Shown here: positions 22,335 to 63,739 of the stretch, piece by piece
Position numbering within the stretch: the first letter of the stretch is position 1
How the letters are laid out: every line of letters begins with the position of its first letter
Source of the DNA: Planctomycetota bacterium
GTDB lineage: Bacteria; Planctomycetota; UBA1135; GCA-002686595
DNA length: 64,000 nt
Direction of reading: 5' to 3'
NCBI GenBank assembly: GCA_012959525.1
Contig: DUDB01000047.1
Coordinates: forward strand, 198,779-262,778
The notes under the pieces: generated by a model
The model's input: only the letters and a program-made list of their open reading frames with translations
Told to the model about the DNA's origin: nothing
The model's database searches: none
Translations under genes and position numbers: made by a program

Positions 22335-22346
22335 TAGACTGCCCCC
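22335..22346 (+). promoter_or_regulatory. leaderless promoter: TAGACT-N6-GTG
   Basis: TAGACT at 22335-22340, then GCCCCC, then the GTG start. The expected RNA start is at or next to the start codon. Confidence 0.6.
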
Positions 22347-22838
22347 GTGGACCCCGCCCGCATCTTGCCCCTCTGGCAGCGACTGTCCGGCATACCCGGT
22401 GGCCGCTGGATCTTCTCGCGCCTGATCGGATTCGGCGTGCCCTACTCGGGATCGATCGGTGCGAACGTGGTTGAGCTCGAACCGGGGCACGCTGTTCTCG
22501 ACCTGCCCGACCGACGCAAGGTGCGCAATCACCTGCGTAGCGTGCACGCCATCGCCCTTTGCAACCTGGGTGAATTGTCGAGCGGTCTGGCGATGCTGGC
22601 TGGACTCCCCCCCCACCTGCGCGGCATCGTCACCAAGATCGAGACCTCTTACTTGAAGAAGGCGCGCGGCACCCTGCGGGCCACCTGCACCTGTCCGGAC
22701 TTCGAAGGGATGCTTGCCTCCGAAGAGGACCAGACCGTGCAAGTGCAGGCACTTCTGTGCGACACCACCGGCGAGCAGGTGGCCGTCACCACCGTGCACT
22801 GGCTCATCGGCCAGCGACCCGAGAAGGCCAATCGATGA
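22347..22838 (+). CDS. DUF4442-type hotdog-fold protein (thioesterase-like)
   Basis: 163 residues, from a GTG start that follows a leaderless-type promoter. The sequence fits the hotdog fold of PaaI-like acyl-CoA thioesterases: DLPDRRKVRNHLRSVHAIALCNLGELSSG, where RNHLxSVHxxAL is the strand/helix turn typical of DUF4442, and EDQTVQVQALLCDTTGEQVAVTTVHW as the long strands. The acyl substrate is unknown. It overlaps the nitronate monooxygenase gene by 4 nt (ATGA), so the two are made together. A thioesterase with an oxidase of nitronates suggests detoxification of an acyl or nitro compound, but that is guesswork. Confidence 0.82.
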   Translation: MDPARILPLWQRLSGIPGGRWIFSRLIGFGVPYSGSIGANVVELEPGHAVLDLPDRRKVRNHLRSVHAIALCNLGELSSGLAMLAGLPPHLRGIVTKIETSYLKKARGTLRATCTCPDFEGMLASEEDQTVQVQALLCDTTGEQVAVTTVHWLIGQRPEKANR

Positions 22839-23836
22839 CCGCGACGGATCCTCCCCCCATCAAGACGGCCTTCACGCTCCAGGCGGGCATCGAATATCCG
22901 ATCATCTGTGGGGCCATGTACCCCTGCAGCAATCCGGAGCTGGTGGCGGCAGCCAGCGAGGCGGGAGGCATAGGCATCGTCCAGCCGATCTCCCTGACCT
23001 ACGTGCACGGCCGGAAATTCCGGGCGGGGCTGCAGGAGATCAAGGCACTCACGGACAAACCCATAGGCCTCAACGCCATCGTCGAGAAATCGGTCAAGCG
23101 CTACGAGGATCGCATGCGCGAGTGGATCGACATCTCCCTGGAAGAAGGGGTGCGGTTCTTCGTGACGGCTCTCGGCAATCCCCGCTGGGTCGTGGACGCG
23201 GTACACGCTTGCGGAGGGATCGTGTACCACGACGTCACCGAGAGGCGCTGGGCCGAGAAGGCCCTGCAAGAGGGGGTGGACGGCCTGATCTGCGTCAACC
23301 GCAGGGCGGGTGGGCATGCGGGAAATCGCAGCCCCGAGGAGTTGCATGAGGAGCTGGCAGACCTGGGGGTCCCTCTCGTCCTCGCCGGGGGCGTCGGCGA
23401 TGGGACCCAGTTCAAGGCCGCGCTGGACATCGGCTACGACGGCGTCCAGATGGGGACGCGCTTCATCGCCACGTCCGAATGCGAGGTCCACGCCGACTAC
23501 CACCAGGCCATCATCGAAGCCGAGGAGGAGGACATCGTGCTCACCGACAAGCTCTCGGGGGTGCCCTGCTCCGTGATCAAGACACCTCTCGTCGAGCGTC
23601 TCGGAACCAGCGCAGGCCCGCTCGCGAGTCGGCTCCTGCGGCACCCACGCACCAAGCACTGGATGCGCACCTTCTACACGCTGCGCTCCTTGCGCCAGCT
23701 GAAGCGCTCGTCCCAGCGCGGACTCTCCTACCGGGACGTGTTCCAGGCGGGCAAAAGCGCCGGGTCCATCCATCGGGTGGAGCCCGTGGGAGAGGTCGTG
23801 AGGCGGTTTATGCGCACCGCCCAGGGGTTGGAATAG
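22835..23836 (+). CDS. nitronate monooxygenase (2-nitropropane dioxygenase family)
   Basis: An FMN TIM-barrel enzyme that oxidises alkyl nitronates. Conserved strings: IICGAMYPCSNPELVAAASEAGGIG at the N-terminus, the flavin-phosphate segment RRAGGHAG, and the classical VLAGGVGDGTQFKAALDIG followed by YDGVQMGTRFIATSEC. The start is the ATG at 22835 that overlaps the DUF4442 stop. The C-terminal 80 residues are basic (SLRQLKRSSQRGLSYRDVFQ). It could equally be an enoyl-reductase-type member (FabK-like); I did not see the FabK-specific NADH features. Confidence 0.85.
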   Translation: MTATDPPPIKTAFTLQAGIEYPIICGAMYPCSNPELVAAASEAGGIGIVQPISLTYVHGRKFRAGLQEIKALTDKPIGLNAIVEKSVKRYEDRMREWIDISLEEGVRFFVTALGNPRWVVDAVHACGGIVYHDVTERRWAEKALQEGVDGLICVNRRAGGHAGNRSPEELHEELADLGVPLVLAGGVGDGTQFKAALDIGYDGVQMGTRFIATSECEVHADYHQAIIEAEEEDIVLTDKLSGVPCSVIKTPLVERLGTSAGPLASRLLRHPRTKHWMRTFYTLRSLRQLKRSSQRGLSYRDVFQAGKSAGSIHRVEPVGEVVRRFMRTAQGLE

Positions 23837-23915
23837 GCCCGCCGCCCCGTCCCGGGTGTGGCAGTGGTAAAGTTGGGCTCAGGCCCCGTCCCCCTGCCCC
23901 CTAGCCCCTCAAGAC

Positions 23916-25208
23916 ATGCTCCTGCGCCTTATTCCCTGCTTGACTCTCGCACTCCCCGCCGCGGCCCAGGACTTCGACTTCGTCATCGATCAGGCCCAGA
24001 GTTCGTCGTCCGTGTACGCCGACCTGGAAACCGACCTGGCGGGTTCCGTGATTGGCGACTATGACGCAGCCACCAACCCTGGCGGCACACGCACGGTGAA
24101 CGGCCTGTTTGGGGGAAGTAGCAACGAGGTCGTCACCATGAACACGACCATCGACAATCTGGCCAACTTCTCCGGCGCATCCTCCGGCGTGTTCAGCATG
24201 AACATGGACCAGGGTGCCCTCACCATGAGCCTCTCGGGGACCAACGTCGACCTGTTGGGCGGTTCGAGCGGAACGGTATCGGTGGACGTCACACTCCTGT
24301 TCAACACGTTCCGTACGTACAACCCCGACTCTCTGTACGTGGGCGGCATTCCGATCACGATTCCTCTGGGGAACATCAACGTGACAGAGGCCACGGTGGT
24401 TCAGACCGGCGCGAGCATGGGTGGCACGCTCATGCCGGGAAGCGGAGCAAGCGACTACGACTTCGCAGCGGTTGTCCCGGTGCTCATGACCCTGACCGCA
24501 GACTTCAACGGCACCGCCGTCGCTATTCCCCCCCTCGACGTGATGATGCCCGTGACAGGCGTCGTCACCCTGACGGGCACCGGCGCAACCGCCTCTGCGG
24601 GGTTCCAGTTCTCCAACCAGACGGCCACCAATGACCCCTTCCCCGGGTTCGCCCTCACGGACGTCCCCATAAGCATCCCCACGATCCTGCCCCCCGGGTT
24701 CATGGCGAACCTGCTGCTCACCGCGACCGTGGCGGCGATAGACTGGGATATGCAGGTCGACCTCAGTCTTGTGGCCGATGGCACACCCGGTGGCGGCAAC
24801 TGCAACGTCGTGTTCTGTGATACCGACCTCAACAACATTGGCGACGTGAGCCTGAGCACTTGCGACTGCTCGGGTGGCTCGATCACCCTCGACCTGAACA
24901 TGAGCTTCCCTGGCCAGTTCACCTACCCCCTCGTGGGACTGGGGACGACGGCAGTGAGTCCGACGGGGGTCTCTGAGCTTTGTCTCGCTGGCTCGACGAT
25001 TGGCCGTTACACCAAGGACGCGGGTGCCATCAGTTCGTCGGGGACCTACAGCATTGACCTTCTGAACGCGAATTCCGCCCCCGGCGGCGGCGTGCCCACG
25101 ATTGGTGGTGCACTGTGTAACGGCAACACCTGGCGCTTCCAGTACTGGCACCGCGACGGCATGAATCCTTCGCGGTTCTCGAAGGGAATCTCAGGGCTGA
25201 TCAACTGA
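23916..25208 (+). CDS. exported beta-rich protein with a Planctomycetota-type C-terminal domain
   Basis: 430 residues with a short signal peptide (MLLRLIPCLTLALPAAAQ, cleavage before DFD). The body is repetitive beta-structure rich in Thr, Gly, Asn and Ser. The C-terminus reads LCLAGSTIGRYTKDAG, an SGTYSIDLL segment and NTWRFQYWHRDG, ending in SRFSKGISGLI. I recall that combination as a recurrent domain in marine Planctomycetota (Poly30 group), with the form GDTWNFQAWHRDxxxxSNFS, so it supports the taxonomic call. Cys pairs VFCDTD and STCDCSG suggest disulfides. No enzyme motif was found. It is an outer-surface or secreted structural protein by inference. Confidence 0.82.
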   Translation: MLLRLIPCLTLALPAAAQDFDFVIDQAQSSSSVYADLETDLAGSVIGDYDAATNPGGTRTVNGLFGGSSNEVVTMNTTIDNLANFSGASSGVFSMNMDQGALTMSLSGTNVDLLGGSSGTVSVDVTLLFNTFRTYNPDSLYVGGIPITIPLGNINVTEATVVQTGASMGGTLMPGSGASDYDFAAVVPVLMTLTADFNGTAVAIPPLDVMMPVTGVVTLTGTGATASAGFQFSNQTATNDPFPGFALTDVPISIPTILPPGFMANLLLTATVAAIDWDMQVDLSLVADGTPGGGNCNVVFCDTDLNNIGDVSLSTCDCSGGSITLDLNMSFPGQFTYPLVGLGTTAVSPTGVSELCLAGSTIGRYTKDAGAISSSGTYSIDLLNANSAPGGGVPTIGGALCNGNTWRFQYWHRDGMNPSRFSKGISGLIN

Positions 25209-25217
25209 TCTTCACGT

Positions 25218-25238
25218 AGCGGCGCTGACTCCGCCGCT
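25218..25238 (+). terminator. hairpin after the exported protein gene
   Basis: AGCGGCG pairs with CGCCGCT around a 7-nt loop, starting 9 nt after the stop. The following bases are GTTCCTG, so there is no real U-tract. Plausible as a terminator or 3' structure. Confidence 0.4.
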
Positions 25239-25306
25239 GTTCCTGTGGCCATTGCCGGCTCGGTAGCGCCCCCGGGGTGCAGCCAACGCCGGCCTCGAAT
25301 GCCTGC

Positions 25307-25324
25307 GGCCAGAAGATTCTGGCC
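25307..25324. promoter_or_regulatory. 18-bp palindrome GGCCAGAA-GA-TTCTGGCC, possible operator
   Basis: Perfect 8-bp arms around GA, in the region between an exported-protein gene and the homocysteine-methyltransferase-like gene, about 120 bp before its start. The size suits a dimeric repressor. The downstream gene has its own leaderless-type -10, so if this is an operator it works from a distance or serves another transcript. Confidence 0.35.
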
Positions 25325-25433
25325 CAAGAACAGTGGGTAAACGGTCCAGGCGGCCGGCGTGGCTGCGGGCACCTAGGTCGCGGAGCGCGTGCGGTTTCAG
25401 CCCCGAGCTTGGATTCCGGAGCAGACCTGCACG

Positions 25434-25445
25434 TATCGTGGAGCC
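25434..25445 (+). promoter_or_regulatory. leaderless promoter: TATCGT-N6-ATG
   Basis: TATCGT at 25434-25439, then GGAGCC, then the ATG at 25446. GGAG is too close to the ATG (2 nt) to be a good Shine-Dalgarno. Confidence 0.55.
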
Positions 25446-26336
25446 ATGGATCGGCACCCCACGCCACTTACTGATCGGCTGGACCGTGGCCCACTACTCT
25501 TGGACGGCGCGCTGGCAACGGCGCTCTTCGCCAGGGGTCTAGACCGCGACGTGCCCGGGGACCTTTGGAACGTAGAGCGCCCCCAGGAGGTGGGCGAGGT
25601 GCACGACTCCCATCGCCTCGCAGGCAGTCAGGTGCTTCAGACCAATACCTTTCGGTCTAACGCCCTGGCCCTGGACGCACTGGGCTGCCGCGGGCGAGCG
25701 GTAGAGTTCAACCAACGCGGCGCCGCGATCGCCCTGGAGTGCGCGGCGCAGTCTCCGTCGCCGAAACGGCCTCTTGTGGCGGGGAACATCGGACCCAGTG
25801 GCAAGCGGATGCAGAGCGGTGGCTCTCGCCAAGAATGGACGGATGCGTTTGCCCAACAAGCGGAGGCGCTGGCAGCGGCGGGCGTCGACTATCTGGGCCT
25901 TGAGACCTTCACGGAACTCGAGGAGGCCCGGGTAGCTCTAGAAGCTGCCCGTGGGGCAACCCAGCTGGAAGTCAGCGTCAGCTTGGCCCCTACCGGATCA
26001 GACGGCGATCTGCTTCTAATCGGGGGGGGCACCATGACCGAGTGCTTGGGTGTTCTGGACGCGGAAGGAGCTACAGCACTCGGACTCAACTGCTGCACGG
26101 GCGCGGAGATGCTGACCGCCCTGCCCCATTGCCTGAAGGCTACCGAACGACCCTTCTTCCTGCGCCCCAATGCAGGTCTGCCTGTGGAAGAGGCAGACGC
26201 CTTGATCTACCCCGACGATCCGGAGGCCTTCGCAAGTCATCTGGCCGCAGCCATCCAGCTGGGTGCAGCCGGGGTGGGCGGGTGCTGTGGGACAGACGCC
26301 CGCCATACCCGCGCCCTGCGCCAAGCAATTGGTTGA
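25446..26336 (+). CDS. homocysteine S-methyltransferase family protein
   Basis: 296 residues from ATG 25446. The Zn-thiolate TIM-barrel family is recognised by LLDGALATALFARG at the N-terminus, the GLNCCTG turn and the C-terminal GGCCGTDARHTRALR, which together supply the zinc-binding cysteines. Most members use S-methylmethionine or betaine-type methyl donors to make methionine. There is no attached cobalamin domain, so it is not MetH. Which donor it uses cannot be told. Next comes the ABC transporter gene, after an unusual 35-nt spacer. No SAM or cobalamin riboswitch is visible upstream. Confidence 0.9.
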   Translation: MDRHPTPLTDRLDRGPLLLDGALATALFARGLDRDVPGDLWNVERPQEVGEVHDSHRLAGSQVLQTNTFRSNALALDALGCRGRAVEFNQRGAAIALECAAQSPSPKRPLVAGNIGPSGKRMQSGGSRQEWTDAFAQQAEALAAAGVDYLGLETFTELEEARVALEAARGATQLEVSVSLAPTGSDGDLLLIGGGTMTECLGVLDAEGATALGLNCCTGAEMLTALPHCLKATERPFFLRPNAGLPVEEADALIYPDDPEAFASHLAAAIQLGAAGVGGCCGTDARHTRALRQAIG

Positions 26337-26340
26337 ATCC

Positions 26341-26369
26341 GGAGGTCCCACCTCCCAAGCTGGGAGGTG
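26341..26369 (+). promoter_or_regulatory. competing hairpins that bury the ABC transporter Shine-Dalgarno
   Basis: CACCTCCC (26349-26356) pairs perfectly with GGGAGGTG (26362-26369), whose GGGAGG is the SD of the gene starting at 26372. Alternatively ACCTCC (26350-26355) pairs with GGAGGT (26341-26346) and frees the SD. The spacer therefore holds an on/off pair. It could also act as the upstream gene's terminator. Function is inferred from pairing only. Confidence 0.6.
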
Positions 26370-26371
26370 CC

Positions 26372-32476: not shown

Positions 32477-32488
32477 TATGATTCTCCC
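32477..32488 (+). promoter_or_regulatory. leaderless promoter: TATGAT-N6-ATG
   Basis: TATGAT at 32477-32482, TCTCCC, then the ATG at 32489. A GGAGG at 32472-32476 lies too far upstream of the ATG (12 nt) to be an efficient SD, and it would be outside the transcript. Confidence 0.65.
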
Positions 32489-34120
32489 ATGAGGGTCGCA
32501 ACGGCACGGACTGGGATGGCCCGCTGGGGGGTTGGAGCACTCATTCTGCTTCCAGTCGCCCTTGCTGGGTGCTCCGACCCCGGTGGAGACGGGGGCACCG
32601 CAACCGAGTCTGCGTCCACTCAGCGCAATCTGATCATGATCGCCGTGGACACGCTGCGCGCGGATCATCTGGGCTGCTACGGATCCGACATCCCCACCCC
32701 TCACATCGACGCCTTGGCTGCCGCCGGAGCGCGCTTTTCAGCGGCCCGCACGCACATACCCCTGACGGGACCCAGTCACGCGTCGCTCTTCACCTCCAGC
32801 CTGCCCTCTGATCACGGCTGCACGGTGAACTCCCAGAGTTTTCCGGAGGCGAATCACACCCTAGCCGAGATCTTGAGTGAGCAAGGGTGGGCCACGGCCG
32901 CATTCGTAAGCCTCGGCGTCTTGAGCGACCGCTTCGGGTTCGCCCAAGGATTCGATACTTACGGCGGGACCTTCATTCGGCGATGGTGGAAGTCATCGGA
33001 GGAGGTCAACGCACGGCTCTCGAAGTGGTTGAGGATTGAAGGACGGGGGAGCCCACTGTTCCTGTTCGTGCACTACTCCGACCCCCACTCCCCCTACGCT
33101 CCCCCGAGCCGAGAGTACCCCAAGATCGAGATACGGCACGGAGAGGCGGTGCTCGCCAACGTGCCCGCAGATTCCCGAGACCACGACGTCACGGTGGAAG
33201 TGTCGAGCCTTCGTGAGGATTTTGAGTTTGTACTGCCGGAGGGAGTGAGCCGCAGTGAAGTGGGATGCTGGATGATCCGCACGGACGACCGCAGGGTGAC
33301 GGTTAAGTTCGCGGAGGAAGATGAGTTCATCCAAAGCAACCGGGGCGCGCCCGGGTTCAAGAATCTTCCTCGCGTCTTCCGGCTGATCAACCTGGAGAAG
33401 AGCACGAAAAAGGTGACTCTGCATGTCACCCTGCGCGAACAGTTGAATCCAGAGACCCTGATCGCCCGCTACCGCGAAGAGGTGGCCTACGTGGACTCAC
33501 AGATCGGCTTGGCGATCGAGGCCCTGCAAGCGGCTGACTTGTGGGAGAACTCCGTGGTGGTCTTTACGGCCGACCATGGTGAGGGGCTCGGAGAGCACGA
33601 CCTGGTGGGCCACGTGGATCAGCTCTACGACTCCGTACTGCACGTGCCCCTGATAGTCGTAGCTCCCGGACTCGTGCAACCGGGCACCGTCATTGATGCG
33701 GCGACAGGCCACATTGACGTTCTCCCCACGGTGCTCGACCTGTTGGGTGTTTCCGTCACGGATAGGTTCCGCGGCGTGAGCCGCATGCCGTGGTTTGAGG
33801 GGACCGGCTCCGCAAGCGGCACGCTCGTCTTGGGCGAGACCCACAAGCCCGAAGCCAAGACCAACCAACGTTCGGTCGTCCAGGGTGGATTTAAGTACAT
33901 CCTGCACCAGGCCGACGGGTCGGAAGAACTCTACGACCTCACTCGGGACCCCCGCGAAGAGTGCAACCTGGCCTCAGAAATGCCGCAGAAGGTGACGCTT
34001 CTGAGCGATCTGCTGCTCAGCGAATTTGAACGCGAGTTTGGACCGGGCGTCGTCGGTGAAGGTCAGGACCTGTCCGAGGAGGATAAGGTCAATCTGCAGG
34101 GCATTGGCTACGCCCGCTGA
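32489..34120 (+). CDS. sulfatase-fold (alkaline-phosphatase superfamily) lipoprotein hydrolase
   Basis: 543 residues from ATG 32489. Signal peptide with lipobox LAGC (C28), so probably surface or periplasmic. The alkaline-phosphatase-superfamily fold is shown by AVDTLRADHLGCYG (metal Asp near 54), the nucleophile loop PLTGPSHASLFTS (T93-G-P-S-H), HYSDPHSPYAPP and FTADHGEGLGEHDLVGH (metal ligands). The nucleophile is Thr, not the Cys that becomes formylglycine, so classic arylsulfatase activity is unlikely; a phosphodiesterase-like reaction is possible. Residues about 210-340 are an inserted beta-rich domain not found in typical sulfatases. The next gene is a sulfotransferase. Confidence 0.88.
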   Translation: MRVATARTGMARWGVGALILLPVALAGCSDPGGDGGTATESASTQRNLIMIAVDTLRADHLGCYGSDIPTPHIDALAAAGARFSAARTHIPLTGPSHASLFTSSLPSDHGCTVNSQSFPEANHTLAEILSEQGWATAAFVSLGVLSDRFGFAQGFDTYGGTFIRRWWKSSEEVNARLSKWLRIEGRGSPLFLFVHYSDPHSPYAPPSREYPKIEIRHGEAVLANVPADSRDHDVTVEVSSLREDFEFVLPEGVSRSEVGCWMIRTDDRRVTVKFAEEDEFIQSNRGAPGFKNLPRVFRLINLEKSTKKVTLHVTLREQLNPETLIARYREEVAYVDSQIGLAIEALQAADLWENSVVVFTADHGEGLGEHDLVGHVDQLYDSVLHVPLIVVAPGLVQPGTVIDAATGHIDVLPTVLDLLGVSVTDRFRGVSRMPWFEGTGSASGTLVLGETHKPEAKTNQRSVVQGGFKYILHQADGSEELYDLTRDPREECNLASEMPQKVTLLSDLLLSEFEREFGPGVVGEGQDLSEEDKVNLQGIGYAR

Positions 34121-39389: not shown

Positions 39390-40844
39390 TCAAAGCCGTC
39401 TCACAGCCTCCGACAGCAGTGCCACTCCGAACCCGGTTGCGCGCTTGCCCAGCATGGAAGGCCCAGCCAGATCCACGTGGGCCCAGCGCGTTCCTGTGTC
39501 CTCGATGTGCCAGTAGATGAATTGCCCCGCGCAGCTGGCCTGGGCGTTGGCGCGATTGGCCACCGAGTTGCGCATGTCCGCGACCGCGCTGCTGAACTCC
39601 GGCTTGTAGAACTCCGGCGCAAAGGGCAGGGGATGCACGAGGTCGCCGGAAGCGCGGCCGGCCTCCACCATGAGGTCCTCCAAGCCGCCGTCATTGGACA
39701 TCAACCCCGCGTGGAGCTTCCCCGTGGCCACGAGTTGGGCCCCGGTGAGGGTGGCCGCATCCAGGATCGTGTCCGCGCCCAACACCCGCGCCGCGTAGCT
39801 GACACCATCCGCCAGCACGAGGCGCCCCTCGGCATCGGTGTTGTTGACCTCCACACTCAGGCCCGAGTGAGCGCGCAGGATGTCGTCAGGCTTGTACGCG
39901 CTGGGTCCGACGGCGTTCTCCGCCAAGCAGAGTACGGCGCTGAGTTTGTGTCGGCATCCACTCCGCGCGAGCACGTTGAACGCTCCGAGAACAGCGGCCG
40001 CCCCACCCATGTCGCTCTTCATTCCGACCATGTGGCCGCCAGTCTTCAACGACAAACCACCGGTGTCGTAGGTGATCCCCTTACCCACCAGGGCGATGTG
40101 TTTCTTGGTGGAGCGCTTGGGCTTGTGCGTGAGCACCACGAGCCGCGGCGCTTCCAGTGCCGTGCGTCCAACGGCGTGCAGGCAACCCAATCCGGCATCG
40201 AGAAGGCGGTTGCCGACGATTGCCTTGCGGGTTACCCGTTCACAGCCGCGGAGGATGCGGGTCGCTTCTTTGTGCATCTTGCCCGGGTGCATTTCGCTGG
40301 GCGGGAAGTCGACCAGGCGCGCCGCTTCGCGGGAGCTCTCCACCGTGGTCTTGACTTGTGCATTAGCCGTCAGGCTGCGCTCACCGGGGCCCACAGCTGC
40401 AATGGTCAGAACGGGCTCGGGCTTCGACGGCTTATTGGCGTGATACATCGGAAGGGCACGCGCTATGGCATTCGCGGCGGGAAGTAGGTGTTCGGGCTCA
40501 TCCAAGAAGAGCAAGAGACCCGCTTTCCCGCGCGTGCCGGTTGAAGACAGGGAGACCACACGCCTGATGGCCTCCGCCCGGGCGGGTGAGTTGTGGCGCG
40601 AGACTGAATCTGGAAGGACGCCAACGGCGAGCTTGCGCGGGGTAGAGCCGGTGAGGGTGCCCGCGACGGCCCCGCGTTCACCGGGCTTGAGGTCTGTGAG
40701 CAGGTCGAGCGCCAGGCGCATGTGCTCCTCCGGCAGGCAGTCGAGGAGTGCACCATCCTGCAGAGTGGATGCGGTTCCGACGATGAGCAGGTAGTCGCCG
40801 TCGAGCAGGCGGGGGATGGACTTGGTGAAGCGGATCTTTGTCAT
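39390..40844 (-). CDS. pepA: leucyl aminopeptidase (M17)
   Basis: 484 residues from ATG 40844, chosen for the leaderless-type promoter and because it aligns well with M17 starts. The C-terminal catalytic domain carries the metal and catalytic motifs GKGITYDTGGLSLKT (conserved Lys/Asp), MKSDMGGAAAVLGAF and NNTDAEGRLVLADGVSYAA, the family signature NTDAEGRL. Removes N-terminal leucine and other residues from peptides with two metals. It is monocistronic. It is divergent from speA; the two start codons are about 230 bp apart, and both carry TANNNT-N6 starts. Confidence 0.95.
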   Translation of the reverse strand: MTKIRFTKSIPRLLDGDYLLIVGTASTLQDGALLDCLPEEHMRLALDLLTDLKPGERGAVAGTLTGSTPRKLAVGVLPDSVSRHNSPARAEAIRRVVSLSSTGTRGKAGLLLFLDEPEHLLPAANAIARALPMYHANKPSKPEPVLTIAAVGPGERSLTANAQVKTTVESSREAARLVDFPPSEMHPGKMHKEATRILRGCERVTRKAIVGNRLLDAGLGCLHAVGRTALEAPRLVVLTHKPKRSTKKHIALVGKGITYDTGGLSLKTGGHMVGMKSDMGGAAAVLGAFNVLARSGCRHKLSAVLCLAENAVGPSAYKPDDILRAHSGLSVEVNNTDAEGRLVLADGVSYAARVLGADTILDAATLTGAQLVATGKLHAGLMSNDGGLEDLMVEAGRASGDLVHPLPFAPEFYKPEFSSAVADMRNSVANRANAQASCAGQFIYWHIEDTGTRWAHVDLAGPSMLGKRATGFGVALLSEAVRRL

Positions 40845-40856
40845 GGGCGTAGGGTA
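40845..40856 (-). promoter_or_regulatory. leaderless promoter of pepA: TACCCT-N6-ATG
   Basis: On the minus strand TACCCT (40856-40851), ACGCCC, then the ATG at 40844. Confidence 0.55.
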
Positions 40857-41060: not shown

Positions 41061-41072
41061 TATACTCCCCCC
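41061..41072 (+). promoter_or_regulatory. leaderless promoter of speA: TATACT-N6-ATG
   Basis: TATACT at 41061-41066, six C residues, then the ATG at 41073. This is the best match to the -10 consensus among the set. No SD. Confidence 0.65.
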
Positions 41073-45411: not shown

Positions 45412-46262
45412 GATCGCGAGGAGGATAGTGGGCGAGGAGCCGGCTGACAACGGGTGCAGATGTGAGTCCCTCTCTGACCCACCACTAGGCGGCAAATGGC
45501 GCGCCCGCAGGTGCGACAGGGCTTACCCGTCCGGCCGTAGACCTGAAACTGCTCCTGGTAGGCCCCCGGTTGGCCCTCCGGCGTTCGATAGAACTCGTCA
45601 AAGGAGGACCCCTCCCGCTCTATGGCCTCTCGCAGGACCGTCTGGATCATGCTGTGCAGGAGCGCCACCTTCTTCCCCGGGACCCTGTCCGAGCGCCGCA
45701 GGGGATGCAGCCCAGACCCGAAGAGCACCTCATCCACATAGATATTGCCCAGCCCCGCCAGAAACGACTGGTCGAGCAGCAGGGGCTTCAACGCCCGCCG
45801 GCGTCCTCCCAAGGCACGGCGCAGCCAAGCCACCGAGAACTCCTCGCTCAGGGGCTCAGGTCCATAGCGCGCAAAGAGGTCCGTGGGGTCGGCATGCCAG
45901 GTCATCCTCCCGAACTTGCGTACGTCCAGGAAGTGCAGCACGCCACGATCGAGGAGCAAGCTGATCCGCGCAAAACGCCCCGGGTCGGAGCGCTTTTTGA
46001 GCACCACAAGGCGCCCCGTCATGCGCAGGTGCACGGCCAGGATGCCGATCTGCTTTCCCCTACGGGCCAGCTCGATGACCACAAGCTTGGCGCGCCGGCT
46101 GACGCCGGTGATGCGCGCACCGCGGATTTGCTCCCGCACCCAGCCCTCTTCTTGCCCGCCCAGGCTCCGCGGCCACTGCACCTCCAGCCCGCATACCTGA
46201 CGCCCCACGAGGGGTCCGCGCAGGAGTCGGGCAGTGGTCTCGACCTCAGGAAGTTCGGGCAT
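45408..46262 (-). CDS. mutM: formamidopyrimidine-DNA glycosylase
   Basis: 284 residues. Removes oxidised purines such as 8-oxoguanine and cuts the abasic strand. The N-terminal catalytic PELPEVET motif is intact (P2, E3), H2TH residues are in SFLAGLGNIYVDEVLF, and the zinc finger CRTCGRAICRLVVGQRGTHICTRC has the C-x2-C-x16-C-x2-C form. Its ATG has TAACCT 7 nt upstream on the minus strand, the leaderless pattern. It is followed by efpL in an overlapping two-gene unit. Confidence 0.95.
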   Translation of the reverse strand: MPELPEVETTARLLRGPLVGRQVCGLEVQWPRSLGGQEEGWVREQIRGARITGVSRRAKLVVIELARRGKQIGILAVHLRMTGRLVVLKKRSDPGRFARISLLLDRGVLHFLDVRKFGRMTWHADPTDLFARYGPEPLSEEFSVAWLRRALGGRRRALKPLLLDQSFLAGLGNIYVDEVLFGSGLHPLRRSDRVPGKKVALLHSMIQTVLREAIEREGSSFDEFYRTPEGQPGAYQEQFQVYGRTGKPCRTCGRAICRLVVGQRGTHICTRCQPAPRPLSSSRS

Positions 46263-46275
46263 GCTTGTCAGGTTA
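46263..46275 (-). promoter_or_regulatory. leaderless promoter of mutM: TAACCT-N7-ATG
   Basis: On the minus strand TAACCT (46275-46270), then GACAAGC, then the ATG at 46262. Confidence 0.5.
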
Positions 46276-52026: not shown

Positions 52027-54975
52027 TCACACCCCGCTCTCGCAAGGGAGCACCGATTCGGCCGCCAGCTCTTCAACGCTCGAACAGGTGCAGATCAGGT
52101 TCTTGTCACCGTAGCCGTTGTCTATTCGCCCCACGTGTGGCCAGAACTTGTGTCGCCGCGACCAGGGCGCGGGCCAAACGGCCTGCTCTCGAGTGTAGGG
52201 GTGATCCCAGTTATCCGACGTGACTGCTCCGGCGGTGTGCGGTGCGTTCTTCAAGGGGTTGTCTGCTCGGTCCAAACGCCCCTCTTCAACGTCGCGAACC
52301 TCGCCACGGATCGAGATCAGCGCGACGCACAACCGATCGAGCTCGTGCCTGGGTTCGGACTCGGTGGGCTCGATCATCAAGGTACCAGCAACAGGGAAGG
52401 ACATGGTGGGTGCGTGGAACCCATAGTCCATCAGGCGCTTGGCCACGTCCTCGGCGACGATGCCCGCACTCTTCTCAAAGGGGCGCAGGTCGATGATGAA
52501 TTCGTGGGCCACACGGCCACGCGCACCACGGAAGAGCACCGCGTAGTGCTCGGAGAGTCTGCTCGCCATGTAGTTGGCTGACAGAATCGCAACCTGCGTG
52601 GCACGCTTGAGACCCGCGGCGCCCAGCAGGTGGATGTACATCCAGGAGATGGGGAGCACGCCCGCGCTGCCCCAAGGGGCCGCAGAGATCGCGCCGATAG
52701 CCTCTGAACCGCCACTCGGCACGACGGGGTTCGAGGGCAAGAAAGGCGCCAGGTGAGCCGCGACTCCTATGGGCCCCATGCCCGGGCCGCCTCCCCCATG
52801 GGGAATGGCAAAGGTCTTGTGCAGGTTCAGATGGCAGACGTCGGCGCCGATATCCCCGGGCCGGCACAGGCCAACCTGGGCATTCATGTTGGCCCCATCC
52901 ATATACACCTGTCCACCAGCATCGTGCACCACCTGGCACAACTCGATCACGCCCTCCTCGAAGACGCCGTGGGTCGAGGGGTAGGTGATCATCATGGCCG
53001 AGAGGGTCTCGCTGTGTTCCTGCGCCTTGGCGCGCAGGTCCTCCATGTCCACGTTTCCATTGACATCGCAGGCGACAGCCACCACACGCATGCCCGCAAG
53101 CACAGCGCTGGCCGGATTGGTTCCGTGTGCAGACGTTGGGATCAGGCACACGTCACGCCCCATCTCTCCGCGTGCCTCCTGGTAGGCACGAATAACAAGC
53201 ATGCCCGCATACTCGCCTTGAGATCCGGCATTGGGCTGCAGCGAGACGGCCGCAAATCCTGTGATCTCCTCCAGGGCGCCCTCCAGGGTTCGGAAGAGCT
53301 CGGCGTAGCCCTGAGCCTGTTCGGTGGGCGCGAAGGGATGCAGTGATCCGAACTCGGGCCAGGTTATGGGCAACATCTGAGTCGTGGCGTTGAGCTTCAT
53401 CGTGCATGATCCCAGAGGAATCATGGATGTCGTCAATGACAGGTCGCGGCCGGAAAGGCGGTGCAAGTAGCGCAGCATCTCGTGCTCGCTGCGGTACTCA
53501 TTGAAGACGGTGCCACTCAGGTACTCACTGGTCCTTGCCAGCGGGACGGGCAGTTCTTCAACCGCCCGTTCGAGGGCTTCGACGTTCACGCCGGACGCGG
53601 CGCTTGCATCCCCGAAGACGCCAAGCAGATCGCGCACGTCGTCCAAGCTCGTGGTCTCATCCAACGAGATCCCCACCGCCCGCTCGTCGATGACACGCAA
53701 GTTCATCCCCGCCGCGTGGGCGCGCCCATGCAAGGCCTCAGCGCCGCCATCAGACGGCTCCACCCGGAGGGTGTCGAAGACCTCTCCGGGCTGCACCTTG
53801 CACCCCAGCTTCTCCAGAGCGGCTGCCAGCCCCAGGGTGCGTCGCCGCACGCGGCTGGCGATATGACGCAGACCATCGGCACCGTGGTACGTGGCGTACA
53901 AGCCAGCCATGATCGCGAGCAGGACCTGGGCCGTGCAGATATTGCTCGTGGCCTTGTCGCGTCGGATGTGCTGTTCGCGGGTCTGCAGGGCCATGCGCAG
54001 GGCAGGGTTGCCATGCACGTCACGGGAAACGCCAATCACCCGACCGGGCAGCTGGCGCTTGTACTCCTCGCGGGTCGCCATGAACGCGGCGTGGGGCCCG
54101 CCGTATCCCATGGGCACTCCAAACCGCTGGCTGTTGCCCACCGCCACGTCCGCACCAAACTCTCCTGGTGCACGCAACAGGGTCAGGGCCAGCAGGTCGG
54201 TGGCGACAACGAGCAGGGCACCGGCAGCGTGCACCCGCTCAGCGAGGGCCTCTTGATCTTCGACGCAGCCATAGGTGTCGGGATACTGCACCAGTACGGC
54301 GCTGCACTCTGAAAACTCTGCGGCCGCTGGGTTCCCCACTTCGACGGTGAGGCCCAGGGCACCGGCCCTTGTGCGAACGACCGAGATTGTCTGCGGGTGG
54401 CACGTGTCTGCAACGAAGAACGTAGAGCGTTTCTTGCGCCCCGCCGCCCAACACAAGTTCAAGGCCTCGGCTGCTGCAGTGCCTTCGTCGAGCAGAGAGG
54501 CGTTCGCCAAGGGCAGGCCGGTCAGGTCCGCCACCATGGTCTGGTAGTTCAAGAGCGCTTCCAGACGGCCCTGACTAATCTCTGCCTGGTAGGGCGTGTA
54601 CTGGGTGTACCAGCTGGGATTCTCCAGCACGTTGCGCTGAATAACGGTGGGCACGAGGCACGGCGAGTAGCCCATGCCGATGTAGCTCTTGTGGCACTGA
54701 TTTTTCGCTGCAATCAAGCGCAACTCCTCCAGCAGGCCGTTCTCTGAACGGGGCGGGCCCAGCTTCAGATCCCCCTGCATGCGAATGGACGCAGGCAGCG
54801 TCTCATCCATGAGGCCGTCTAGGCTATTGACCCCCAACTCCTCCAACATGGCCTGCACGTCATCGTCGCTGAGGGCAATGTGGCGCTGAACGAACGAGTC
54901 GTGTCGGGAGGCAGGGCTTTGCGGGGAATCGGTCAACGCAGTGGTCGGGGCAAGGGCTTCAGGGGGGGCCACCAT
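52027..54975 (-). CDS. gcvP: glycine dehydrogenase (decarboxylating), single-chain P protein
   Basis: About 982 residues; decarboxylates glycine with PLP and loads the aminomethyl group on lipoyl GcvH. Fused GcvPA-GcvPB type, as in proteobacteria. The PLP lysine is K720 in [25 protein letters not shown], and FVQRHIAL at the start matches the usual FxxRHIG. The start is uncertain: ATG 54975 (used here), an upstream TTG 54987, or a TTG at 54936, which gives an N-terminus closest in length to E. coli. It has no riboswitch, unlike gcvT. It lies 40 kb from gcvT-H and is divergent from the Nudix gene across a 16-bp inverted repeat. Confidence 0.96.
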
Positions 54976-55011
54976 ACGCTGTCGCAACCCGACGTGCGAC
55001 AGCGTATGGTG
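54970..55011. promoter_or_regulatory. 16-bp perfect inverted repeat between gcvP and the Nudix gene
   Basis: CACCATACGCTGTCGC (54970-54985) is the exact complement of 54996-55011, with a 10-nt centre (AACCCGACGT). On both strands the arm reads GCGTATGGTG, so each arm contains a TATGGT hexamer; the plus-strand copy is exactly 6 nt before the Nudix ATG. It spans the shared control region of two divergent genes and overlaps the first codons of gcvP. A bidirectional operator/promoter is likely, with a cruciform as an alternative. Confidence 0.7.
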
Positions 55012-58083: not shown

Positions 58084-58217
58084 GGGCTCCCGCCCGAGTT
58101 CAGAGGGGTCGGTGGGCAGAGAGTCGGGCGATTACCCCGCTGGATTCCTGCGGATGGAGGACCTATAGGCACCCCACACTCTGCCCATGTCGGTTCCCAG
58201 CTACCCACTAATCGGAC

Positions 58218-60260
58218 ATGCCCCGAAACGCCACCCGCCTCGCTGCTCTCGCTACTGCCCTTCTCCTCGCCTGGTTCCTCGTTGTAGAGCATCGCTCCGC
58301 CCTGAGCGCCCCCCCCATGGAGGGCCTCACGTCCGCACCAGCCGAGGCCGGATCTGACCTCCAGCCTCTTCTGGAAGCCCGGGCAACGGCACGACAAGCC
58401 CAACCCACGGGCTCCGACGAGCCACGCATCGCAATCGCGGCCCTCGAGCCTGCGCCGGGCCCGGCGACCTTGCGTGGGCGCGTGCTCTTGGAAGACGAGC
58501 GGGGAATCCTGAGGGGCGCGAGTGAGTGCACCATTGAGCTGTGGATGGATTGCCTCGATGAAGGCCTGGAAATCTACTGCTCCGATGGAACCTGGACCGT
58601 CGAGCTCGATCCGGAAGCGCTCCAGCCTAAGTTCCTCGATGAAGATGGGACCTCCCTGAACGCGGACCTCGGAACGTTGGAGGTCTGGTCCATTCTGGTC
58701 GGGGATCAACCGGCACTCGCCACTCAGAGCTCCTTCAACGTCCACCGTGGACAGGAAACGATCATCACTTGTCGATTGCCGCAGCCCACGCTCTTGCGTG
58801 TGATAGACGGAGCGACAGGGGTCGAATTGAACGCTGTGGACGTAGCCAGCGCGTATTCAGATCTTATTCCAGTCACACAAGAGGACATGCATGACGAGCT
58901 GGTGGTCCGCTCTGAACCCTCACCTCTCTCCTTCTCCCCGAATTTCGAGGACATGGCGGAGATGCTCTTGGAGAACTCCCTCCCCTGGTGGATTGGTTCG
59001 CAGGGCTATGGCTGGGAGAGGGTCATCATCGACCACCGGCGGGGCGGCGAGCGTAGCGTTGAGCTTTTCGCGGCGGGCTCACTGGAGCTGACACTGCTGG
59101 GCGATTGGCCGCAGACCACGTCGATTGAACTCTCGCCTCTATTCGGGCCGCTCGAATACGAAGACATCATCAAGCTGATCCCCGCAAGCGGCAGGCCATT
59201 GTCCGTACCTCGCTTGGCGCCTGGAACCTGGAGGGTCTCCGCGAGTAGTGGCGTCCACTGGCGGCACCGCGCGACCCTGGCCAGTGCCGAGGTACTCATC
59301 ACGGCTGGAGCGACGAGCGAGTTGGAATTGGAGATCCCAGCCCTGGCCCCCCTGGGAGATCCTGTCCCCATGGGCGGAATCCTCGAAGTACCCCCGACCT
59401 GGATGGAAACAGGCACCCTGACCATGTCGCTCGAGATCCTGGACGACCTGCCCCATGACTATGAAGTGATCTATCACTCGGATCAGGCGAGCGTATCCAA
59501 GAACACTGAGGTCAGGGATCTGCCCCGAGTTGATGGCGAGGCCAACCAATATCAATGGCATGGCGGGCTTCGCCCACCCGGTCGGTACGCCGCCCAGATC
59601 GCCCTCAGGGGAGCGGGGTGCCTGTGGCGTCAGGAGTTTGAGTTGGGATACCAAGGAGACGAACGGCTCCTGCTGGTGATGCCGGCGCCTGCGCGGATTC
59701 GCGTCGTGCCGGTCGACGCCGAAACGACGCGGCCGATCCTTGGGGGGCACGCCTCGCAACGTGAGGTGGGTGTCGGGTTCAGCTTCCGCGGCTCCGGCGG
59801 GCAGATGATGTTCACGCCCTTGCATGGGGAGGTGGATGCCACAAGCGGGACGTTCGTGTCCACGCTGCCCGTGGGACCTGTCCGGCTCTCCGTAGATGCG
59901 GACGGCTACATGTGGGAGACCGTGCACCTCGAAATCCAACCGGGCGACAACGACGTGACCGTGCTCATGCACCCCCTCCTTGAAGTGCAGGTATCGCTCA
60001 CGTGCGATGGCGGTCCTGTGACGGTCCCCGACAACTGGTTCTGGAATACGGAAGCCACTGATCTAACGGGCGAGGAGCTCGACATGGGCTGCGAAAACAG
60101 CCCAGACCGACCTGAGTGGGTGCGGTTTCTCCTCCCCAACGTGGGCACGTGCCGCCTTGTCTTCCCCGAGGTCAACGGCTACGAGCGCCCAAGCCCCGTT
60201 GAGCTTCGCCTCGATCCCCTGCAGCCCATCGAGCTCATCCTGAACCTTCGCCGCAAGTAG
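58218..60260 (+). CDS. membrane-anchored protein with carboxypeptidase-regulatory-like beta domains
   Basis: 680 residues with a signal anchor at residues 8-25 (LAALATALLLAWFLVVEH), so the body is exported. It consists of serial beta-sandwich units: GRVLLEDERG near residue 88, TLLRVIDGATGVELNAVDV, LPVGPVRLSVDADGYMWETVHLEIQPGDNDVTVLMHPLLEVQVSL, and the ending NVGTCRLVFPEVNGYERPSPVELRL. These resemble the carboxypeptidase-regulatory-like/CNA-B domains common in Planctomycetota cell-surface proteins. No catalytic residues are seen. It is convergent with the sulfatase pair (9 bp). Specific role unknown. Confidence 0.75.
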   Translation: MPRNATRLAALATALLLAWFLVVEHRSALSAPPMEGLTSAPAEAGSDLQPLLEARATARQAQPTGSDEPRIAIAALEPAPGPATLRGRVLLEDERGILRGASECTIELWMDCLDEGLEIYCSDGTWTVELDPEALQPKFLDEDGTSLNADLGTLEVWSILVGDQPALATQSSFNVHRGQETIITCRLPQPTLLRVIDGATGVELNAVDVASAYSDLIPVTQEDMHDELVVRSEPSPLSFSPNFEDMAEMLLENSLPWWIGSQGYGWERVIIDHRRGGERSVELFAAGSLELTLLGDWPQTTSIELSPLFGPLEYEDIIKLIPASGRPLSVPRLAPGTWRVSASSGVHWRHRATLASAEVLITAGATSELELEIPALAPLGDPVPMGGILEVPPTWMETGTLTMSLEILDDLPHDYEVIYHSDQASVSKNTEVRDLPRVDGEANQYQWHGGLRPPGRYAAQIALRGAGCLWRQEFELGYQGDERLLLVMPAPARIRVVPVDAETTRPILGGHASQREVGVGFSFRGSGGQMMFTPLHGEVDATSGTFVSTLPVGPVRLSVDADGYMWETVHLEIQPGDNDVTVLMHPLLEVQVSLTCDGGPVTVPDNWFWNTEATDLTGEELDMGCENSPDRPEWVRFLLPNVGTCRLVFPEVNGYERPSPVELRLDPLQPIELILNLRRK

Positions 60261-60269
60261 CCTCGCTCG

Positions 60270-61970
60270 CTACTTGCCTTGTTCCTCAAGCTCCGCGACG
60301 AGCCTCTCGACGGTCCCCGCGACGCTGGCCTCGGCGGGGCGCAGAGCCAGGGCTGCGCGGTAGGCGTCCAGAGCCTTACGGATCTCGCCCCGGGCCTCGT
60401 AGGCGCTGCCGAGGTAGGTGAAGGATGCGAAGCGATCCAGTCGGCCCGCTGCAACGAGAGGGGCGAAGAGTGCGACGATCTGGTCGTGCTGAGCCTCGTC
60501 CACGAGGCAGCCGCCCAAGGTCTCCGTGGCCAGCATGTTGCCCGGATTGGCGACGATCACTTCGCGTAGCAGTGGAATGGCCTCAGCGCTCCGCCCGGCT
60601 TGAGCCAAACCGACGGCCTCACAGAAACGGGCGTAGTGTTCAGCGTGGTCCCGGGGAGCCGGGCGCGTGCTCGGCTCCAGAGGGTCAGGCAGTTCTCGCA
60701 CCTCTTCCCCCGCCGCGGCGTAGCCCAGGGCTCGTAGCTGCTTGAGTTGATCCTCTTCCAGAGCCAACGCGCCGGATTGTAAGCGGGGGAGCTGGCTCAA
60801 TGCAGCGAGCGCCTCGCGATAGGGAGCCACATCCACGTTGCCACGAGAGAGCAGATCGTCCAGCTCGCCCGGATCCGCAGACAGGTCGTAGTACTCCGGC
60901 CGCGTGCTGTGCAGGTACTTGCCGCGCTCGTCCAGCCAGCCCGCCAGGGGACTCCAGCCGTAGTTCAGGTAGCCCGAGTAGGACTCCATGTACACACCGC
61001 GCCCGGCACCGATGGGCTCGCCCGCGAGGTTTGCGCCATCGACGTCCCCCACGCTTCCCAGCCCCAGCACGTCCATGAACGTCGGGAAAACGTCCACCAC
61101 GCTGACGAGTTCGTTCGAGCGTGTCCCCGCGCCGCGTCCATCCGGGAAGCGCATCAGGAAGGGGACGTGGATGGTGGCCTCGTAGGCGTAGGCCGTGTGG
61201 GTGGGCTCTCCGTGTCGCCCGAAGGACTCGCCATGGTCCGCCACGATGGCGAGCAGGTACCCGTCGGTTCCCAGCACTTCATCCAACCGATCCACGAGGC
61301 GACCCACGTCGTGGTCCATGGAAGCCACTTCCGCCAGGTAGGGCTTGCCCCCGGCCTGCTCCAGGAATTCGGGCGGCGGCGCATAGGGAAAGTGCGGATC
61401 GAAGTAGTGCACCCACAGGAGGAAGGGCTGATCGGGATCTCGTTGCTCAAGCCAGGCGAGGGCATCGTCCGTCACCTCTCGTGAGCTCCTGCGCGTGAGC
61501 GCGGCCACGGGTGCCCCGTTGGGCGGGACGGGCTCCGAGTAGAGGTCGAAGCCTTGGTCCAATCCGTAGGCGGCGGAGAGGACGACGGCTGAAACGAAGG
61601 CTGCCGTTTCGAAGCCGCGCTCCTTGGCGCACTCGGCGAGGGTGCGGGCTTCCGGCGAGAGACTGGCCCAGCCGTTGTCCCGCACCCCGTGTCGCAGGGG
61701 ATAGAGGCCCGTCATCATCGAGACGTGCGCGGGCAGGGTGATGGGCGCAACCGTATGCGCGCTGTCGTAGACGACGCCGGGTTGGGCCAGGCGCGTCAGG
61801 TTGGGGGTGATCCCGCGATCCGCACCGTACAAATCCAGCGCACCCGCGCGAGTCGTATCCAGGGTGATGATGACACCCGATCGGGGCGCCTGCTCCTGCG
61901 ATCCACAGCTCACGGCAAACATCGCGGCCGAGAGAACAGCGAGCGAGAGGCTTAAGGAGGTGGTCTTCAT
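60270..61970 (-). CDS. sulfatase-fold lipoprotein with C-terminal TPR repeats, copy 2
   Basis: 566 residues. Lipobox at FAVSC (C22). The alkaline-phosphatase-superfamily domain has LDTTRAGALDLYG (metal Asp), the nucleophile loop PITLPAHVSMMTGLYP (T78-L-P-A-H), HYFDPHFPYAPP and VADHGESFGRHGE. As in its neighbour, the nucleophile is Thr, so formylglycine-dependent sulfatase activity is not expected. Residues from about 450 on are TPR-like repeats (LAQAGRSAEAIPLLREVIVANPGN; YEARGEIRKALDAYRAALALRPAE). Second gene of a two-gene unit, 22 bp after its paralogue. Confidence 0.9.
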   Translation of the reverse strand: MKTTSLSLSLAVLSAAMFAVSCGSQEQAPRSGVIITLDTTRAGALDLYGADRGITPNLTRLAQPGVVYDSAHTVAPITLPAHVSMMTGLYPLRHGVRDNGWASLSPEARTLAECAKERGFETAAFVSAVVLSAAYGLDQGFDLYSEPVPPNGAPVAALTRRSSREVTDDALAWLEQRDPDQPFLLWVHYFDPHFPYAPPPEFLEQAGGKPYLAEVASMDHDVGRLVDRLDEVLGTDGYLLAIVADHGESFGRHGEPTHTAYAYEATIHVPFLMRFPDGRGAGTRSNELVSVVDVFPTFMDVLGLGSVGDVDGANLAGEPIGAGRGVYMESYSGYLNYGWSPLAGWLDERGKYLHSTRPEYYDLSADPGELDDLLSRGNVDVAPYREALAALSQLPRLQSGALALEEDQLKQLRALGYAAAGEEVRELPDPLEPSTRPAPRDHAEHYARFCEAVGLAQAGRSAEAIPLLREVIVANPGNMLATETLGGCLVDEAQHDQIVALFAPLVAAGRLDRFASFTYLGSAYEARGEIRKALDAYRAALALRPAEASVAGTVERLVAELEEQGK

Positions 61971-61992
61971 CCCGATGGATCAGAGGGTGTGG

Positions 61993-63726
61993 TCAGTTCC
62001 CGCCCTGGCGCTGGCTCTTCAATTCCGCCTGACGCTTTTCGATATTGCGTCTGAACTCCGCCGCCTGGGGATCGCCCGGACAGAACTCCTCGAACGCGCG
62101 TGCGTGCTCAAGGGCCAGCTTGTACTCCCCCAACATGGCGTGAGCCAGGGCCAGGTTGCGCCGCAGACCGGGACGGTCCAACTCCAGTTCGATCATGGCG
62201 GACAGAACGGCAATGGCCTTGCGCGGCTTCTTTACCTCCAGGAGCATCTCTCCAAGGAGGGAGTGGGCGAAGGAGTGGCGGGGGTTCTTGGCCACGACTT
62301 GCTGCAGTCCGGCGATGGCGAGGTCCACCTTGCCCCGGTCGGACTGAGCCAACGCGGACCAGACGGCGTAGTGCTCATCGAGGTTCTCGGCTGGAGCGGG
62401 CAGGGTGCTGGGACTGGCCGGTTCGGGTAAGGCGACGCTCACGCTGGCCGAGCCCGCGTAGCCCATGCCCCGCATGCCCTCCTGGCTGACGGCACCTTCT
62501 TCGGTGGATGTGCGCTCCAGCGCGGGCGCCTGGGCGATGCGCATCATGGCCTCTCGCGCCGCGGAGACGACTCCTCCTTCACGCAGGGAACCATCCGAGT
62601 CCTTGTACTTACCGAACGGGTTTCTGACCAGGAGATCGGAGGTCTCCTCGGGATCCAAGCCCGTGTCGTACAGCTCGGGCGTCGGACCGTGGATGTACTT
62701 CTTGCCCCCGGGACCCACCCAACCCGCCAGGTGTCCCCAACCGTAGTTCAGGTATCCGTAGTAGCTCTCGAAGTACACGCCGCGATTGGCCGCAATGTCA
62801 CCGGCGACCAGGGACAGCCCATCGCTCTCCGGCACGCTCAGCCCCATGGCCTCGAGCGCTGTGGGAAACACATCCACTATGCTGACCCGTTCCGTCGATC
62901 GCTCCCGCGCCCGCGCCCGTCCAGGCAGGCGCACGATCAGGGGCACCTTCAGGGTGGCGTCGTAGCAGAAGAGGCCGTGGCTGGCCTCGCCATGCTTGCC
63001 GCCACTCTCACCGTGGTCGGCCACGACAATGACGCAGAAGTCCTCGTAGTCGGGTTCGACGCGCAGCCGGTCGAGCAAGGGGCCGATGGCCGCGTCCATG
63101 GCGGCGACCTCGCCCAGGTAGGGCTTGCCCTCCGCGCGCTTCAAGAACTCAGCGGGCGCCTCATAGGGTGCGTGAGGATCAAAGTAGTGGACCCACAGGA
63201 AGAACGGCTCCTCTCCGTCGCGTCCGTTGAGCCACTCGATGGCCTCCGCGGACACCTCGGTTCCGATGCGGTCGCCCACGCCGCCCCGGTGTGCCGAAAC
63301 CGCAGGCGACTCGCCATACACGTCGAAGCCCTGATTGAGGCCGTAGAGCTCGCGCAGAACGCCAGCGGCGACGAAAGCGCCCGTGCGGCAGCCCGCGTCC
63401 TTGGCGCGCTCTGCCAGAGTCTCGGCTGAGCTGGGCAGGGACATGTAGCCGTTGTCGCGCACTCCATGCCGCGGCGGATACAGCCCCGTCAGCATGGAGG
63501 CGTGGGAGGCGATCGTGATGGGAGCCACGGCGCGGGCGTCCTCAAAGACGATGCCTTCGCTGGCCAGGCGGTTCAGATTGGGCGTGAGCCCGCGCTTGTC
63601 CCCATACACGTCAAGCGCGTCGGGGTTGGTGGTATCCAGCGTGATGAGCACGCAGGACTTCGGCGCGTCCTGTTTGGGCGCGCAACCGCAGAGGTAGCAG
63701 GCGATGAGGACCGGTAGGAGGCGCAT
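61993..63726 (-). CDS. sulfatase-fold lipoprotein with C-terminal TPR repeats, copy 1
   Basis: 577 residues from ATG 63726, chosen because MRLLPVLIACYLCGC gives a clean signal and lipobox (C15) and because a TACACT hexamer lies 7 nt upstream. An ATG at 63744 would add six residues. The nucleophile loop is PITIASHASMLTG (T71-I-A-S-H): the family Pro is Ala here. Metal-site regions LDTTNPDALDVYG, HYFDPHAPYEAP and VADHGESGGKHGE are intact. TPR repeats occupy the C-terminus (QSDRGKVDLAIAGLQQVVAKNPRH; EMLLEVKKPRKAIAVLSAMIELELDRPG). It is paralogous to the gene downstream, about 45% by eye. Confidence 0.9.
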   Translation of the reverse strand: MRLLPVLIACYLCGCAPKQDAPKSCVLITLDTTNPDALDVYGDKRGLTPNLNRLASEGIVFEDARAVAPITIASHASMLTGLYPPRHGVRDNGYMSLPSSAETLAERAKDAGCRTGAFVAAGVLRELYGLNQGFDVYGESPAVSAHRGGVGDRIGTEVSAEAIEWLNGRDGEEPFFLWVHYFDPHAPYEAPAEFLKRAEGKPYLGEVAAMDAAIGPLLDRLRVEPDYEDFCVIVVADHGESGGKHGEASHGLFCYDATLKVPLIVRLPGRARARERSTERVSIVDVFPTALEAMGLSVPESDGLSLVAGDIAANRGVYFESYYGYLNYGWGHLAGWVGPGGKKYIHGPTPELYDTGLDPEETSDLLVRNPFGKYKDSDGSLREGGVVSAAREAMMRIAQAPALERTSTEEGAVSQEGMRGMGYAGSASVSVALPEPASPSTLPAPAENLDEHYAVWSALAQSDRGKVDLAIAGLQQVVAKNPRHSFAHSLLGEMLLEVKKPRKAIAVLSAMIELELDRPGLRRNLALAHAMLGEYKLALEHARAFEEFCPGDPQAAEFRRNIEKRQAELKSQRQGGN

Positions 63727-63739
63727 GGTCTGAAGTGTA
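63727..63739 (-). promoter_or_regulatory. leaderless promoter of the sulfatase-TPR pair: TACACT-N7-ATG
   Basis: On the minus strand TACACT (63739-63734), TCAGACC, then the ATG at 63726. This fits the rule seen in seven other genes. Confidence 0.5.

Follow-up and report, generated by a model that had tools for sequence, protein, structure and literature searches.

The question raised by this locus is whether a TANNNT hexamer, standing at a short fixed distance before start codons, marks transcription that begins at the start codon itself. The stretch analysed (hereafter the window) comprises 64,000 nucleotides of a Planctomycetota bacterium, positions 198779–262778 of contig DUDB01000047.1, the genome having 4.04 Mb in 84 contigs and base frequencies of 0.189 for A and 0.172 for T. 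An earlier note on this DNA had pointed to eight such hexamers, six nucleotides (N6) before the starts at 22347, 25446, 32489, 40844 (minus strand), 41073 and 55017, and seven (N7) before those at 46262 and 63726 (both minus strand). All eight were found with these spacings when the letters were re-read. Judged from the DNA, TANNNT at N6 or N7 is very probably the -10 box of a promoter with its transcription start at the start codon, and the resulting mRNAs are likely leaderless. In a standard sigma-70 promoter the -10 hexamer spans positions -12 to -7. Because of this geometry, and taking the box as a sigma-70 -10 element, transcription would begin at the first base of the start codon with N6 and one base earlier with N7, and ribosomes would take the 5'-terminal AUG or GUG directly.

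Enrichment before leading genes

The sample in which the motif was counted amounted to 1,049,476 bases (1.05 of the 4.04 Mb of the focal genome, window included). Genes were called by codon usage and start codon only, with no use of upstream sequence, the first call giving 797 genes at 91% coding density and a second training of the gene finder 790 usable ones. A gene was regarded as leading if its upstream neighbour was divergent or lay on the same strand at a distance of 20 nt or more, which held for 563 genes. TANNNT stood at N6 or N7 before the called start in 58 of them against 7.1 expected from the other spacings, an approximately eightfold excess made up of 39 sites at N6 and 19 at N7 (background mean of 3.56 per spacing over N14–N45). 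The earlier note had proposed a comparison with shuffled upstream regions; 200 dinucleotide-preserving shuffles averaged 4.8 and never exceeded 14. Among the 64 possible XYNNNZ masks TANNNT ranked first at these two spacings, both in leading genes and in divergent genes alone (25 of 226 versus 4.2 expected). The window itself had the box at 5 of 37 leading genes by the second gene call (0.47 expected; the 37 include one gene that lacks a called upstream neighbour and is not counted in the 563), and 53 of 527 leading genes carried it outside the window, so the signal is independent of the sites first picked.

When every in-frame start within 60 nt was accepted, the number of genes rose to 74, control pairs of spacings averaging 15.8 and reaching 25 at most. 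The same procedure returned 0 of 79 in Escherichia coli K-12 (4.1 expected) and a modest peak on a Deinococcus deserti plasmid (5 of 77 versus 1.2 expected, p 0.009). A mixture model over offsets 5–8 arrived at T0.69 A0.85 ... T0.94 with free middle bases, weights of 0.61, 0.26 and 0.12 for N6, N7 and N8, and a log-likelihood of 142 compared with 29–55 at eight control offset sets. It assigned approximately 18% of leading genes to the motif, a rough figure only, since controls and operon-internal genes also gave high fractions. A plain count of TANNNT-N6-ATG over the whole focal genome was tried and set aside: since most ATGs do not serve as starts, it came to 311, little more than the 281 of the reversed pattern.

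Shine-Dalgarno signals and two modes of initiation

Words resembling the Shine-Dalgarno (SD) sequence preceded 101 of the 218 operon-internal genes of the focal genome against 42 at a control position. Leading genes had no real excess (84 of 563 versus 77 at the control position); such words occurred in 6 of the 58 box carriers and in 78 of the other 505. Since the operon-internal genes keep the SD signal, initiation would be divided by gene position, with leaderless starts in leading genes and SD-led starts inside operons. The anti-SD sequence CCTCC was present in all four 16S rRNA loci of the family that were examined, the focal 16S match breaking off near a contig end, at model position 873, and the focal genome had five matches to sigma-70 region 3.

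Conservation in the genus and the speA leader

Two genomes of the same genus, G001 and G002, were compared over the fetched part of G002 and over single loci of G001, and ortholog matches were excluded from the count if they began beyond the first 60 nt of the gene or if less than 60 nt of upstream sequence was available. Box and spacing were kept in all orthologs of the 58 carriers that remained, 8/8 in G002 and 2/2 in G001, around which the flanks had changed, for example at the fpg gene (46262).

The arginine decarboxylase gene speA offers a longer view. In all three genomes of the genus its TATACT lies 6 nt before the ATG. Among 18 speA loci from other genera of the family (L150–L166 and L175), ten have a TANNNT, reading TATACT, TATAAT or TAGAAT, 26–48 nt before whichever start lies closest to the aligned one; a background of 0.3–0.5% per spacing, as in two relatives (G018 and G013), would give approximately 2 of 18. 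One further locus (L165) has TATAAT at 9 nt, and a few others show, by eye, a similar box further upstream. A tree was built from 110 arginine decarboxylase rows, hence from one gene; in it the focal genome and the two same-genus genomes are nested among these relatives, inside a family clade that also holds Planctomycetes bacterium Pla163. Since ten of the loci from other genera have the box with a predicted leader of approximately 20–42 nt, the simplest reading is that the speA box likely predates the leaderless state and that the focal genus likely lost the leader by deletion.

Alternative explanations and points against leaderless starts

The alternative that survives best, albeit an improbable one, is that the boxes are true promoters but that a very short leader, of 1–6 nt, precedes the coding sequence in most transcripts. 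Leading genes do have a shoulder at N8–N12 (40 sites versus approximately 18; 7, 11, 8, 7 and 7 against 3.6 per spacing), which means that some leaders would be a few nucleotides long. Moreover, a tight form of the pattern, fitted to the focal genome and requiring an ATG preceded by C, has 13 matches at spacing 9, 7 of them at called starts. However, the maximum lies at N6, followed by N7, where a standard -10 box would place the first transcribed base at or next to the start codon.

Less probable still is that the hexamer works in the RNA, as an A/U-rich site for ribosomal protein S1 or another initiation signal, with no promoter involved. A study that included one planctomycete species (PMC5397173) allows either leaderless promoters or S1 sites for an A/T bias before starts. 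The fixed TA...T with free middle bases argues against such an element, as do its rarity before operon-internal genes (5 of 218, yet above the 0.5 expected there) and the displacement of the speA-like box to 26–48 nt upstream in the other genera. An artefact of chance, of start choice by the gene finder or of upstream stop codons is the least credible of all, even if TAG is the commonest form of the first three bases and the two gene calls place some starts differently: the gene finder was blind to upstream sequence, E. coli and the shuffled regions have no peak, and stop codons of upstream same-strand genes are ruled out as the source by the peak in divergent genes.

Returning to leaderless starts at the start codon, several observations weigh against this reading or limit its reach. 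As many as 505 of the 563 leading genes have no box at N6 or N7, and the 5 boxed operon-internal genes, exceeding their own expectation, speak for a strong positional bias, not for exclusion. The 18% of the mixture model is unspecific, control offsets giving 15–40% with other, diffuse motifs and operon-internal genes 61% at a log-likelihood of 167. Only a weak -35 signal accompanies the boxes (4 of the 58 carriers have a TTG at 25 nt upstream of the box), the shoulder at N8–N12 points to some short leaders, and all starts are computed, with the two gene calls disagreeing at some of them. An SD excess before leading genes was seen in three relatives (22 of 116 versus 9 in G018, 13 of 85 versus 5 in G031 and 19 of 37 versus 7 in G095); none was found in G002 or G032. 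Finally, other upstream TANNNT sites of non-carriers were also kept, in 8 of 16 cases in G002 and 2 of 2 in G001, so conservation alone is unspecific; some of these sites may be promoters themselves.

The widespread leaderless transcription suggested by the earlier note thus holds as a prediction, in view of the sharp N6/N7 peak outside the window, the genus-level conservation and the peak in relatives. Its further suggestion that this may be the main initiation mode for single genes is not supported, as only 58 of 563 leading genes (approximately 10%) have a strict match.

Apart from the box, C was frequent at position -2 before starts, at 0.53 in leading and 0.47 in operon-internal genes compared with 0.26 before internal in-frame ATGs. 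Leaderless transcription does not explain this preference, because the operon-internal genes share it.

Distribution among relatives and across the phylum

With genes called in the same way, the N6/N7 peak recurred in G002 (13 of 166 leading genes versus 1.9 expected), G018 (10 of 116 versus 0.8), G013 (9 of 100 versus 1.0) and G032 (20 of 106 versus 2.1). It was weaker in G031 (9 of 85 versus 2.8, p 0.0025), where another pair of spacings reached 7. Outside the order, gene calls in 60 kb each showed no peak in G064 (0 of 34) or G095 (2 of 37 versus 1.0 expected), albeit G095 passed a whole-genome pattern test (p 1.9e-5).

That test compared the tight pattern at spacing 6 with decoys at spacings 13 and 15 in 119 genomes of the phylum; the pattern having been fitted to the focal genome and demanding C before the ATG, a low count elsewhere is no proof of absence. 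In the focal sample 17 of 25 spacing-6 matches lay at called starts and another 4 at in-frame alternatives, compared with 0 of 1 for the spacing-13 decoy and 0 of 4 for the spacing-15 decoy (plus 1 in-frame alternative); at spacings 12 and 18 it was 2 of 4 and 1 of 3. The phylum totals were 4688 for spacing 6, 2349 for spacing 13 and 2094 for spacing 15. After Bonferroni correction spacing 6 was enriched in 51 of 119 genomes from 23 of 66 families, including 46 of 113 genomes outside the order. The two approaches did not always agree: G031, with a peak by gene calls, failed the pattern test, and the fetched sample of G018, also with a peak, had no pattern match.

Ten genomes, seven of them Planctomycetota, were reached via named loci, with spacing 15 as the sole decoy. 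Spacing 6 exceeded spacing 15 by 51 to 2 in Pla163, 60 to 9 in Phycisphaera sp. RI_382 and 105 to 15 in Phycisphaerae Co_bin.225. Smaller ratios were obtained in Humisphaera (34 versus 14), two Phycisphaeraceae (40 versus 21 and 31 versus 9) and Fuerstiella (48 versus 30). Outside the phylum, Prevotella jejuni had 43 versus 44. Ratios near 2 do not single out Planctomycetota, as they were also obtained in Chamaesiphon (45 versus 23) and Myxococcus (23 versus 12). Within one family (f17) the pattern was patchy, the spacing-6 ratios being 9.8 in G099, 3.7 in G150, 1.1 in G117 and 0.8 in G080.

Tentatively, and with slightly less than even confidence, Planctomycetota may be proposed as a large, unrecognised leaderless phylum, in many families of which the -10 box itself would set the translation start of first genes, SD sequences would serve operon-internal genes, and leaders would have been deleted under a conserved -10 box as at speA.

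Relation to known leaderless systems

The kind of expression predicted here is already known from Deinococcus-Thermus and Actinobacteria in the portions of the literature consulted, where only a hint of it was found for Planctomycetota, in one species whose description allows leaderless mRNA and/or the use of S1 (PMC5397173). The resemblance to the -10 motif of Deinococcus asserted by the earlier note was right. Passages of PMC12340547 describe, with experiments, a Deinococcus-Thermus mode in which TANNNT stands approximately 6–7 bp before the open reading frame of leaderless genes, next to a separate GGAG class, the former comprising nearly one third of D. radiodurans genes. Box, spacing and leaderless reading are alike in the two cases; unlike that system, the present one concerns 58 of 563 leading genes in another phylum and was predicted from DNA alone. 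The same passages report a domain-wide motif scan, the phylum figure of which may include Planctomycetota. Zheng et al. (2011; PMC3160421) take TANNNT approximately 12 bp upstream to indicate leaderless (TA-led) genes, which they found in 207 of 953 bacterial genomes. The string "planctomycet" is absent from the main text of that article, whereas the present boxes belong to a planctomycete lineage and come with ortholog footprints. In Mycobacterium tuberculosis (PMC3898074, the text of which contains the term TANNNT) extensive leaderless transcripts rest on mapped RNA 5' ends, in contrast to a prediction from DNA. Two planctomycete classes are grouped by anti-SD type in the available text of PMC10783764, and no planctomycete transcript map naming leaderless genes was among the matches listed in the open-access literature.

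If true, a deep phylum with unusual cell biology would join the known leaderless groups, a usable start-codon rule would be gained for annotating Planctomycetota genomes, and speA would serve as a worked example of possible leader loss. Since Pla163 is a named strain and shows the pattern strongly, the prediction can be tested by mapping of 5' ends.

The eight sites of the window

The eight boxes are collected in Table 1. The first gene call recovered seven of the eight starts, placing 32489 at 32516 instead, which makes the former uncertain; the second recovered five, leaving out 32489, 40844 and 63726. The start at 40844 is supported by alignment within the genus: three genomes share the same box and ATG, one of them having a 1-nt indel at a point further upstream. 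The start at 63726 is ambiguous because of an in-frame ATG at 63744. For the gene at 25446 no ortholog passed the filters in the fetched relatives.

Table 1. Predicted -10 boxes in the window and the genes that follow them
Box	Position	Strand	Spacing and start	Gene product (source)	Remarks
TAGACT	22335..22340	+	N6, GTG 22347	DUF4442 protein (Pfam)	box and spacing also in G002
TATCGT	25434..25439	+	N6, ATG 25446	homocysteine S-methyltransferase domain (Pfam)	
TATGAT	32477..32482	+	N6, ATG 32489	sulfatase (Pfam)	start uncertain
TACCCT	40851..40856	-	N6, ATG 40844	leucyl aminopeptidase, M17 (Pfam)	identical in alignment of G001 and G002
TATACT	41061..41066	+	N6, ATG 41073	speA, biosynthetic arginine decarboxylase (NCBIfam)	equal spacing in G001 and G002
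TAACCT	46270..46275	-	N7, ATG 46262	formamidopyrimidine-DNA glycosylase, fpg (NCBIfam)	N7 kept in G001 and G002
TATGGT	55005..55010	+	N6, ATG 55017	weak Nudix-type match (NCBIfam, below cut-off)	kept in G002; overlaps inverted repeat
TACACT	63734..63739	-	N7, ATG 63726	sulfatase with TPR repeats (Pfam)	start ambiguous

That all eight would be first genes of their transcription units, as the earlier note had it, is an inference from the neighbouring genes, given here by the first gene call. Four of them (40844, 41073, 46262 and 55017) have a divergent gene upstream, whereas 22347 and 25446 follow a gene on the same strand at distances of 109 and 237 nt, respectively. The gap is 65 nt for 32516, which leaves 38 nt, by subtraction, for 32489, and no upstream gene was called for 63726, near the contig end. 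Likewise, its statement that none of the genes has a usable SD sequence applies to four of the five sites scored (22347, 25446, 41073, 46262 and 55017), where no SD-like word occurs; the fifth, 46262, has GGAGG running into the box, a word that is absent in G001 and reduced to GAGGGG in G002.

Between the divergent genes 54975 (minus strand, GcvP-like) and 55017 (plus strand) lies an inverted repeat at 54970–55011, read by eye, whose 17-nt arms (CACCATACGCTGTCGCA / TGCGACAGCGTATGGTG) are 8 nt apart. It overlaps the TATGGT box and has a mirror TATGGT on the opposite strand, the plus-strand half being kept in G002, and it looks like an operator on a predicted leaderless promoter. Another inverted repeat, CCGGTTTTCAAAACCGG, immediately precedes the TACCAT box belonging to a carrier gene at C19:1255 of the focal genome; one base of an arm differs in G002.

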